Source: Luteitalea sp. | Lineage (GTDB): Bacteria; Acidobacteriota; Vicinamibacteria; Vicinamibacterales; Vicinamibacteraceae | NCBI GenBank assembly: GCA_009377605.1 | Contig: WHTT01000003.1 | Coordinates: 62,001 to 126,000, forward strand | Direction: 5' to 3' | Length of the DNA stretch: 64,000 nucleotides | Shown: in pieces, positions 52,433-55,450 of the stretch | Layout: each line of letters begins with the position of its first letter | Position numbering within the stretch: the first letter of the stretch is position 1 | The notes under the pieces: generated by a model | Seen by the model: the letters and a program-made list of their open reading frames with translations, nothing else | Told to the model about the DNA's origin: nothing | Database searches by the model: none | Position numbers and translations under genes: made by a program

Positions 52433-53394
52433 TCATTCCCTCGCGTTGAACAGGATGCGAGCACCGAGCGAGGGCTCGCCGTTTTCGCTCGAGTAGAAGG
52501 ACGCGGTGATGGACCCGAGCGGCTTGATGGCTAACCCCAGCGTCTGCCCATCGATCATTCGCTGGAGGACAGGTCGCGAGATCGTGAAGTAGGTCTTGCC
52601 GCCGTCGCCCTCGGTCACGGGCCAATCGATGATCATCTGTGAGTTCAACACGCGGGACAGCGGTGTCCCGCGCCTCAGGCTGTCGGCGGTCACCGTCCGC
52701 TCATCCCAGGCCGGGTCACCACCCAGAATTTCGACCACGCGCACCAGGCCGAAGTCTTTCAACGGATCGGAGGTGCGCTGGACCGAGTGGGTCGTCAGCT
52801 CGAGGAGCCCGTGGTCTGCGATCTGGCGTCCGTCGAACGCTCCGAGATCGAAGCGCAGGATCACGTACATCGTGCCGTTGACCGTGAGCAGGTGTTTCTT
52901 CGAGGCGCCATCCTGGACGTACCAGTTGTTCAGATTCACATCAGGATTATCGAGGTCGATGATGGCATCCTCGCCGGCGCGAACCTCCTGCCGGAAACTG
53001 GCGAGATCAGGTATCGGCGGATGATATGGGACCTGTGCACCCCGATCGGGCCCCGCACGCGCGACCTCGATGATGTCCACCTTGAAGTAATCGACGTCGA
53101 CGCGGTACTTCTCGAGGCCCCAGTCGATGAGCGCAAGTTGAGCGAACACCGAGTCGCCGGTCTGTGCAGGGAAATCGCGGGTCGTCAGGCTGATCGTGTG
53201 CCAGCCGTCCGTGTCCGGGATATCGAACTCCATCAAGTGACTGTGGAAGTCGGTCGTTCGCTGCGTGTTCGCATGGAGGTTGACGCGACGCGGGGCGTGG
53301 CTGACACGAATCCGCGTTTCAATCCGCAGCTCGTACCCGGGCCGACTCAGCAGCTCGAGGTCCATCCCATCGGACACCTTGCGCTTGATGACGG
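52433..53394 (-). pseudogene. 5'-truncated gene for a secreted DNRLRE-like protein
   Basis: The readable part encodes about 320 residues with KVSDGMDLELLSRPGYELRI, DFHSHLMEFDIPDTDGWHTI and KYRVDVDYFKVDIIEVAR, a jelly-roll-like domain. A second domain has LTVNGTMYVILRFDLGAFDG, GLLELTTHSVQRTSDPLKDF and PAWDERTVTADSLRRGTPLS, the pattern of DNRLRE-type surface domains. It has no start codon or signal of its own. Upstream of about 53395 the same frame passes into the antitoxin-like gene. The 5' end was therefore lost in a rearrangement. Confidence 0.72.
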
Positions 53395-53957
53395 CCCACC
53401 AGGCGCTCAAACCGCCCGCCTTCGCGGCAGAGGGCGAGGGTCCGCGCGACGGTGTCCTCGGGCGAGAGCTCGCTCGTTTTGCCGGCGCGGCGCAGGAAAT
53501 CGAGAAGCGCCGCGTCAGTGTCCGATAGCCGCACCCAGGCCTCGGGCCTGCGCGTGTGAACGACCGTGTCGCTCCCCAGTAGCTTTCGCGGCAGCCGGAA
53601 CCCGCTCGTCGCGACTTCGCCCCGGCCGGCCGTTTGCGTCGTAAATCCCAGGAGGTTAGAAGCCGCGATTCCGGCCGGGAAGACGACGTTGCGCTGGGAT
53701 GCAAGCCTCTGGATTGCGGCCGGGTTCGGGGCGCTCTTGCCCAAGGGCGTTTCGCGGGGCCTGTAGTAGACGCCCTTGCTGATGCGCTGCAGCACCTCCT
53801 GGCGCGCGAGGCGGGACAGTGCCTGCGCGACGGCGGAGACGGGAGCCTCCGGAAAGTCCTCGAAACGCCACAGCCGTTCGCCGCCATCCTGGATCTGTCG
53901 GCGGACCCAACTGGCGATCTGTCCGGGTCCTTTCGGAGGTTTTCTGCGCTCGGCCAT
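53395..53957 (-). pseudogene. AbiEi-like (DUF6088) antitoxin-type regulator, 3' end cut off
   Basis: From ATG 53957 the gene encodes ERRKPPKGPGQIASWVRRQI, then a winged-helix region AQALSRLARQEVLQRISKGV, YYRPRETPLGKSAPNPAAIQ, LLGFTTQTAGRGEVATSGF and LDFLRRAGKTSELSPEDTVA, up to EGGRFERLV. This is the DUF6088/AbiEi pattern of type IV toxin-antitoxin regulators, which bind their own promoter. About 20-25 C-terminal residues and any downstream AbiEii nucleotidyltransferase toxin are missing, because the DNA switches at about 53395 to another gene. The frame stays open to 53319 in foreign sequence. The reading from upstream starts (to 54095) crosses the operator and is not supported. Confidence 0.75.
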
Positions 53958-53986
53958 GCGCTCGACTGTGGCCGCACCCAAGCATG

Positions 53987-54018
53987 ATGTCAAGTTTTTG
54001 AGCAAAAAAACTTGACAT
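53987..54018. promoter_or_regulatory. Palindromic operator with promoter elements before the AbiEi-like gene
   Basis: ATGTCAAGTTTTT and its inverse complement AAAAACTTGACAT form a perfect 13-base inverted repeat with a short centre. Read on the minus strand it contains TTGACAT, a -35 box pointing toward the antitoxin-like gene; on the plus strand a second TTGACAT points toward the ParB-domain gene. AbiEi-type proteins repress their own promoter through such repeats. Confidence 0.78.
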
Positions 54019-54133
54019 TCCGCCCGAGCGACCACAGCCCGAGCGCACCAGCGATGGGCTTGTGGCATCATGGCACCCACACCATGCGAGGGCACCCTTC
54101 AGCGGGCAGCGACCGCGGAGATGAAAGTAAACT

Positions 54134-55029
54134 ATGCCCCAGACCAAACTGGTGCGCGTCTCGGAACTCGCGCTCGACTTGCATAACTACCGCACGATAT
54201 CCCAGCCGGACGAGCAAACCGCGATTGAGGCGATAATCTCAACGAGCCCCGACCGCTTCTGGGCGTTGACCGACAGCCTGCTGCAAGACGGCTACTTGCC
54301 GACCGAGAGCGTCATCGTGCTGCGCGGCAACAAGCCTCGCGTCCTGAGCGTGCGCGAGGGGAACCGCCGTGTCGCGGCGCTGAAACTGATTCATGGCATC
54401 CTGCCGCTCAACGGGTTCACGGTTCCCGATGACATCCGGCGCGCCATCAAGGCCGTCTCCGCCGACTGGCGGCGCCAGAACGCCGAAGTGCCCTGCACCA
54501 TTTATGAACCCACCGACGCCCAGACGGTCGATCGCATCGTTACGCTTGCGCACGGCAAGGGCGAAAAGGCCGGCCGCGACCAGTGGAACGCGGTGGCGCG
54601 CGCGCGCCACAACCGCGATGCGAACAACGCAGCGGAACCGGCGCTCGATCTGCTCGAAGCGTACCTGAAGGAAGGAAGGAACGTCACCGCACAGCAGAAG
54701 GCGCGCTGGGCCGGCGCCTACCCCTTGAGCATCCTTGCCGAGGCGATGAAGCGGCTCGCCCCGCGCCTCGCCCGGAAGATCACGTCCGCCTCGCGCACAC
54801 CATTCAGACGAAGCTGCGCCGGCCGTGGATCGTGTCGTACGACTCGCACGCCGCCATCGCGGCGCTGTACCGCAACCGGCGGAAATTCTCCTATGCCCTT
54901 CAATACAGCGCCACCCGCGCCTACGAAGGCAGCGAGTTGTTTGTGTTCTCGGATTCGCTTCAAATACCGGGGAAATCAGCTCTGCCGTATATTGCGGCCG
55001 GCCTGGGTCGGGTCCGCCGCTCCGCATAG
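54134..55029 (+). pseudogene. ParB-like nuclease-domain gene, frameshifted near 54775
   Basis: The first 215 residues carry a ParB/Srx-type domain (KLVRVSELALDLHNYRTISQ, TDSLLQDGYLPTESVIVLRG, VLSVREGNRRVAALKLIHGI). These are followed by helices (GEKAGRDQWNAVARARHNRD, ALDLLEAYLKEGRNVTAQQK). After AEAMKRLAPRLARKI the frame becomes unnatural. Reading continues in the next frame as HTIQTKLRRPWIVSYDSHAA and YSATRAYEGSELFVFSDSLQ, to a stop at 55029. I do not recognise this second part. The proteins are typical of integrated elements and plasmids. The gene is divergent from the AbiEi-like gene and shares its operator region. Confidence 0.65.
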
Positions 55030-55082
55030 GTACGACCGGACGCGATGGGCCACCGGGAAAGCCAGGAATCGGCGCCGGATTT

Positions 55083-55110
55083 TTGACAACAGGCTTGACA
55101 ACTTGACAAC
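55083..55110. repeat. Three TTGACAAC direct repeats next to the tRNA-derived att sequence
   Basis: TTGACAAC occurs at 55083-55090, 55095-55102 and 55103-55110, about 30 bases from the tRNA-like repeat at 55140. Clustered octamers this close to an att core resemble arm-type binding sites of a tyrosine recombinase or its excisionase. No integrase gene remains. Confidence 0.55.
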
Positions 55111-55139
55111 TCACGGCCGCTCAAAATCGCCGTAAGTTA

Positions 55140-55162
55140 TTGGTGCGGAAGGGGGGACTCGA
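55140..55162. repeat. Attachment-site repeat: copy of the tRNA-Leu 3' end
   Basis: The 23 bases beginning TTGGTGCGGAAGGGGGGACT are identical to 55241-55263, which covers the CCA end and the T-arm side of tRNA-Leu. The match ends one base into the T-loop. Such duplicated tRNA 3' ends mark integration of an element into a tRNA gene. Here the two copies are only 101 bases apart. Confidence 0.85.
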
Positions 55163-55241
55163 CCCTGAAGACCGAGGCGCGTAGCGCCGAAGGTCGATGG
55201 CTGAGAACGACCGTGAGCGCCAAACGAAATGAAATGGAGTT

Positions 55242-55328
55242 TGGTGCGGAAGGGGGGACTCGAACCCCCACGATGTTGCCACCGCCAGCCCCTCAAGCTG
55301 GTGCGTCTGCCAATTCCGCCACTTCCGC
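55242..55328 (-). tRNA. tRNA-Leu (anticodon GAG)
   Basis: The 87-base minus-strand gene starts GCGGAAGTGGCGGAATTGGC, has the anticodon stem CCAGC/GCTGG around the loop TTGAGGG (anticodon GAG at 55292-55294), a long variable arm, the T-arm with GTTCGAGTC, and an encoded CCA at 55242-55244. Acceptor bases GCGGAAG pair with CTTCCGC. The gene is intact. A 23-base copy of its 3' end lies 101 bases downstream (see 55140). Confidence 0.97.
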
Positions 55329-55392: not shown

Positions 55393-55450
55393 TAGAACCC
55401 TTGAGAACCCGAAACTTGACGCATTTGGGTCAAGTTTCGGGGCTCGCAAG
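55393..55450. repeat. Family 2 repeat (copy 4, most complete)
   Basis: GAACCCTTGAGAACCCGAAA continues as CTTGACGCATTTGGGTCAAG and TTTCGGGGCTCGCAAG. The two halves form an inverted repeat (CCCGAAACTTGAC / GTCAAGTTTCGGG) around GCATTTGG. It lies between tRNA-Leu and secG. The rest of the 203-base gap shows nothing else. Confidence 0.85.

Follow-up and report, generated by a model that had tools for sequence, protein, structure and literature searches.

The apparent second attachment site next to the tRNA-Leu(GAG) gene is one unit of a tRNA-tail repeat family and not an att scar. The locus as a whole is very probably explained by this tail repeat plus a separate, eroded integrative element, which inserted at the copy of the tRNA 3' end that the tail carries (termed D' in the following) and was reduced by later deletions to a dead remnant. 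The mobile remnant itself is ordinary. The tail-repeat family, on the other hand, is apparently undescribed in this order: a literature search for RtT or tRNA-tail repeats in Acidobacteria found no description, which is a weak negative, as subscription journals were outside its scope. The features of the locus are given below with their strands; the window is the whole stretch of 64,000 nt that was analyzed.

52433..53395, minus: gene of an unknown family, 5' part lost at the junction (ORF only)
53397..53978, minus: AbiEi-type antitoxin gene, 3' truncated (PADLOC AbiEi, E 2.6e-26 and 7.9e-24; Pfam DUF6088 above cut-off)
53987..54018, no strand: perfect palindrome ATGTCAAGTTTTT-N6-AAAAACTTGACAT between the divergent AbiEi and PD-lambda-5 genes
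54134..54769, plus: PD-lambda-5 gene A, N-terminal 212 codons only (PADLOC PDLC03997, E 1.5e-100; aligned to the intact L089 homologue)
54770..55029, plus: PD-lambda-5 gene B (methyltransferase), C-terminal fragment (PDLC04018, E 6.1e-17; L089 gene B alignment from residue 212)
55083..55140, minus: putative tRNA-proximal end of the integrative element, with ATAACTTACGGC...GCCGTGAGTT inverted repeat and three arm-type octamers
55083..55090, plus: octamer TTGACAAC, copy 3
55095..55102, plus: octamer TTGACAAC, copy 2
55103..55110, plus: octamer TTGACAAC, copy 1, nearest to the tRNA
55141..55241, minus: tRNA-tail unit, 79-nt spacer plus direct copy of the tRNA-Leu(GAG) 3' end (covariance model R1, homologous units in relatives)
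55141..55162, minus: direct copy D' of the tRNA-Leu(GAG) 3' end, 22 nt exact from T-loop TCGA to CCA
55176..55188, minus: hairpin GGCGC-TAC-GCGCC within the tail (covarying pairs in relatives)
55242..55328, minus: tRNA-Leu(GAG) gene (ARAGORN, Rfam RF00005), 3' end at 55242, secG side upstream

An earlier note on this DNA had reported an exact 23-base copy of the tRNA-Leu 3' end at a distance of 101 bp, and this copy is real: TTGGTGCGGAAGGGGGGACTCGA occurs exactly twice in the window (55140-55162 and 55241-55263), the start-to-start distance is 101, and 0 occurrences are expected in shuffles. The three TTGACAAC octamers beside it are also present, at 55083, 55095 and 55103, and the same octamer is found at only one other, unrelated place of the window. 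The description as two tandem att copies holds in part, as both copies exist, but the putative element end adjoins the distal copy only. Directly downstream of the tRNA lies an RtT-like architecture with an exact 22-nt copy of the tRNA's own 3' end at 55141-55162.

With a covariance model (R1) that was built with the window unit among its sequences, the tail unit at 55141-55241 scores 91.9 bits. Homologous units follow tRNA-Leu(GAG) in seven genomes from several families, two units each in G003 and G011 and one each in G005, G033, G057, G152 and G115, and further units follow tRNA-Leu(CAG), two in G030 and one each in G033 and G005. At a cut-off of E 0.01, R1 has matches in 38 of 162 genomes, the weakest of them not individually confirmed. 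The strong matches that were examined lie behind Leu (GAG, CAG, TAA, CAA), Ser, Lys, Pro, Ala, Asp, Asn, His and Met tRNAs; one tRNA-Met of G003 has five units. The tails, about 93-119 nt per unit, share a common plan: the tRNA 3' end is followed by a short loop, often CTCGCTTCGCTCG, then in many tails by its own inverted copy, often by TTCAGGC and a hairpin, and finally by a direct copy that begins in the T-loop. In every intact case, this direct copy tracks the sequence of its own tRNA. Behind the tRNA-Leu(GAG) units of G003, and likewise in some other relatives, there is no element end. Some tails (L132, L136, L138 and L163; G112, G118 and G048) have, in place of the loop behind the tRNA, a strong GC hairpin and then a T-rich stretch, an arrangement that resembles an intrinsic terminator within the tail.

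How unusual are these copies? A direct copy matching at 18/18 positions was found 79-87 nt downstream of 7 of the 41 tRNAs of the window genome, i.e. about a sixth, and behind 5/44 tRNAs of G003, while three outgroup genomes had 0/35. The seven tails of the window genome belong to seven amino-acid types, and all seven match exactly over 21-22 nt from T-loop to CCA. When the 3' ends of other tRNAs served as null, 8/41 tRNAs of the window genome and 7/44 of G003 exceeded all null values, with about one expected. The inverted copy is significant for the tail family as a whole, yet degenerate: in 36 tail-bearing tRNAs it matches on average at 11.2 of 16 positions versus 8.6 of 16 for the ends of other tRNAs, and 47% of these tRNAs reach p<0.01; in the window's own tail it is not above chance (9/16, p 0.54). 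The central hairpin has changed on both sides in five of its six consensus pairs, 94.6% of the cells pair as compared to at most 54% in slid versions, and the covariation exceeds slid as well as shuffled controls. The folding energy of single tails is no strong discriminator (mean z -2.2 versus -1.1 behind other tRNAs). Within the window genome, the likeness of the spacers is 0.67 versus 0.61 when shuffled, and as the spacers are barely more alike than shuffled sequences, the exactness of D' would not simply reflect a recent origin but most likely is a maintained property. In these tails, drift is seen in the rest of the unit but not in the copy, which raises the questions of what holds the copy identical and what it serves.

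The closest known arrangement is RtT at the E. coli tyrT locus, in which the same script detects direct copies of 19/19 nt at 159, 337 and 515 nt and an inverted copy with a run of 10 nt versus a null maximum of 8, and which the Rfam model RF00391 detects four times. As in RtT, the Acidobacteriota tails consist of units behind the tRNA whose last part copies its 3' end exactly, and the units can be tandemly arranged; a partial inverted copy is present in many of them, although the one in the window's own unit is not above chance. They differ in unit length (178 nt in E. coli versus about 93-119 nt), in their occurrence behind many tRNA species of one genome, whereas RtT was seen here only at tyrT-tyrV, and in their sequence: with RF00391, neither the window region (threshold E 5) nor 12 other tail loci (threshold E 1) give a match, and no other Rfam family matches the tails at these loci. 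The tails therefore resemble RtT by architecture without belonging to RF00391. RtT-like repeats, with the known example of E. coli tyrT, thus occur in a distant phylum and behind many tRNA species.

Could the tails be mobile themselves? They might be non-autonomous mini integrative elements of about 100 bp that are moved in trans by tyrosine integrases and duplicate the end of the tRNA from T-loop to CCA. In each of the seven tails of the window genome, D' has the borders of a usual T-loop att segment, and tandem arrays with near-identical units within a genome exist in G003, G011, G030 and G112. Nevertheless, we regard this as unlikely, as the tails follow many different tRNAs with an inverted copy that matches the respective host tRNA, so that a separate element lineage would be required for every tRNA. 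Moreover, no arm-type repeats were noticed within the spacers, and within the family, the Leu(GAG) unit seems to have been inherited vertically.

In contrast to the tail, the sequence beyond it has the characteristics of a mobile element. Directly behind D' follows ATAACTTACGGCGATTTTGAGCGGCCGTGAGTTGTCAAGTTGTCAAGCCTGTTGTCAA, and the block at 55083-55140 combines an inverted repeat and three octamers of arm type with the core at the tRNA 3' end, an arrangement that recurs in nine genomes. Among 162 genomes of the order, 9 contain a single match each to the end-motif pattern, always at tRNA-Leu(GAG), which ARAGORN found in eight cases; in the ninth, the contig ends within the tRNA, but the tRNA can still be read. 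In G007 and G022, the three octamers shift jointly from TTGTCAA to TGGTCAA, which fits the idea that they are sites of one binding protein. A Fic gene is the first large gene beside the end motif at four loci (G077, G142, G038 and G090), and tRNA-Leu(GAG) is a recurrent home of Fic, AbiEi and PD-lambda-5 genes in the order. The octamer block was found neither in 267 genomes of the phylum outside the order nor in a scan of viral contigs, and phage records matched tRNA-Leu genes only.

An intact island of the same genome gives an idea of what the complete element may have looked like. At tRNA-Thr(CGT), 30-bp direct repeats lie 7.5 kb apart, an integrase with an arm-binding domain adjoins the distal repeat, and the proximal end is AATCAATCACTTACGGG, a sequence comparable to the element end of the window. 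This island (L234:421-7953, G000 C2) also contains a replication-initiation-like gene and a head protease/major capsid gene and is like a small phage satellite or a reduced prophage.

We found no Phage_integrase match on the entire contig C3 of the window genome, in line with the statement of the earlier note that no integrase is left, and no further core copy that could represent the far att across the 55 kb of the window beyond the tRNA; as no displaced core copy occurs in these 55 kb, only a remnant is claimed. Complete elements with an integrase, which had been suggested as a check, were not found on the other motif-bearing contigs, which also have no second core copy within at most about 17-19 kb. 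With neither far att nor integrase surviving, the element end is assigned by its position, the covariation of the octamers and the analogy to the tRNA-Thr island, and taken together these strongly suggest that the block at 55083-55140 is the end of an integrative element. The notion of an eroded element with arm-type octamers is supported by a block that is conserved at tRNA-Leu(GAG) in 9/9 cases and whose counterpart borders an intact island. As in tRNA-borne islands of the Islander type (PMC4383910), the tRNA 3' end constitutes the att core, with the tRNA-Thr island and its 30-bp repeats and distal integrase as an intact example, but the remnant of the window differs in having neither integrase nor far att, and in starting behind the tail copy D' and not at the tRNA.

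It is quite unlikely that the ACTTACGG block with its octamers is instead native sequence downstream of tRNA-Leu(GAG), e.g. a terminator or a regulator site. All nine instances are indeed at this tRNA, and none has a second core or an integrase nearby, but the block occurs in only 9 of the 162 genomes, scattered over several families, the closest relatives are without it, related ends precede the intact island at the tRNA-Thr of the window genome, and the neighboring genes are of foreign type (Fic, AbiEi or PD-lambda-5).

The genes next to this end are remains of defense systems. Gene loss at the left border, which the earlier note had placed at about 53395 within another gene, is borne out by the ORF at 52433..53395 that is without its 5' part, and the AbiEi-like antitoxin gene is broken as described: its ORF spans 53319-54095 on the minus strand, the AbiEi homology (E 2.6e-26) ends at about 53397, and another gene starts there. 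Pfam has no match for the gene on the other side of the junction, and 60 relatives contain no homologue of it by which the ancestral left flank could be fixed. No AbiEii toxin gene was seen beside AbiEi, so that a truncated AbiEi without an identified adjacent AbiEii does not make up an AbiE toxin-antitoxin pair. As in type IV AbiE systems, the gene product matches the winged-helix antitoxin model, and a palindromic operator-like sequence lies upstream; the 3' truncation and the lack of an identified neighboring AbiEii are the differences. The palindrome at 53987-54018 between the divergent genes is a probable operator. A near-perfect inverted repeat, CCCGAAACTTGACGCA/TGGGTCAAGTTTCGGG, is found at 55408-55441 between tRNA-Leu and secG, and its CAAGTTT core resembles this palindrome.

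The second gene had been taken for a ParB-domain gene. It is broken as claimed, by an internal deletion, but it is a defense gene and not a partition gene: the ORF matches residues 1-214 of the 491 residues of the PD-Lambda-5_A model (E 1.5e-100), and a partition function was therefore dropped. In another frame 3' of this fragment, 78 matched codons correspond to the C-terminus of PD-Lambda-5_B (model residues 212-279). An intact A-B pair exists in the Thermoanaerobaculia MAG_60 (L089), with 71% identity to the A fragment of the window, and relative to this pair the fusion junction near 54770 reflects a deletion of about 1.45 kb. According to its description in E. coli, PD-lambda-5 protects broadly against phages and looks like a compact combination of RM and abortive infection (PMC9519451). 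The A N-terminus and the B C-terminus match the PADLOC models strongly, but complete A and B genes are not present, as A residues 1-212 are joined to B from residue 212, and since both genes are fused by the internal deletion of about 1.45 kb, the system is almost certainly non-functional here. The only other near-full gene A that was found in the order (L099, G077 C44:27719-29901) is split by a roughly 1.5-kb insertion that has inverted ends of 30 nt.

Since the assembly consists of 382 contigs, the deletions could partly be assembly errors. That the A-B fusion and the 53395 junction are both artifacts of this fragmented assembly, and that the organism has an intact island, is nevertheless very unlikely, because gene A of PD-lambda-5 was not found a second time in the assembly and both junctions lie deep within a long contig.

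How could the locus have arisen? The tail probably is co-transcribed with the tRNA and then trimmed off, and either recombination between the direct repeats or selection may maintain the identity of D' with the tRNA. A tyrosine integrase would then have recombined an integrative element into the distal copy D' and not into the tRNA itself, and such a use of D' would explain why the island starts behind the tail and why tRNA and tail were left intact. The tRNA-proximal end of the element, with inverted repeat and three arm-type octamers, would have survived, and its cargo would have comprised the AbiEi antitoxin and the PD-lambda-5 phage-defense system. A later deletion presumably took the distal part with the integrase and the far att, leaving the junction near 53395, and another one would have fused PD-lambda-5 A to B near 54770, resulting in a dead remnant.

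It is most improbable that the 101-bp unit was left by two successive integrations at tRNA-Leu(GAG), by tandem att sites that lost one element or by a residual insertion, as the earlier note had proposed: the copy does extend exactly from T-loop to CCA, a recognized attachment segment in tRNA genes, and the element end does adjoin the distal copy, but members of the 101-bp spacer family follow the same tRNA in relatives, of which G003 and others have no element end beside it, as well as many further tRNA species, where they also form tandem arrays and lack an element end, and a scar would not turn up repeatedly with a covarying hairpin. For this unit, the refuting observation that the earlier note had named, the same arrangement in relatives with no mobile genes, has thus been made.

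If an element used the tail copy, tails might have a role in this. The tRNA tails, which in this order would form a genome-wide system and each re-encode the 3' third of their own tRNA, could be decoy attachment sites, which offer integrases a spare copy so that the tRNA gene is spared. We consider this idea doubtful. The island of the window does sit behind the spare copy D', and element-like ends seem to lie behind the last tail copy also at tRNA-Lys of G002, tRNA-Arg(CCG) of G003, tRNA-Ser(CGA) of the window genome and tRNA-Leu of G005, although only the ends of G002 and of the window meet the scripted motif, while the other three were judged by eye. Such sequences at four other tRNAs make a decoy role worth testing. 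Independent of this role, integration is the usual explanation for tRNA fragments beside tRNA genes, but here they mostly belong to the tail repeat, and therefore a search for islands that relies on tRNA fragments would misplace their ends in these genomes.

Two further loci concern other elements at tRNA-Leu. In G057 (C33:138000-174120; L062, L069), a 5' half of tRNA-Leu(GAG) lies by secG, and the whole tRNA with its tail follows 36 kb away, which suggests a 36-kb element that is inserted at the anticodon loop of this same tRNA. In G002 (L067, C1:1602185-1602388), a tRNA-Leu fragment from the anticodon loop onward, together with a tail, is located 4.4 Mb from the intact gene; it is preceded by TGTGCAA-type repeats and probably represents the far end of an anticodon-loop element.
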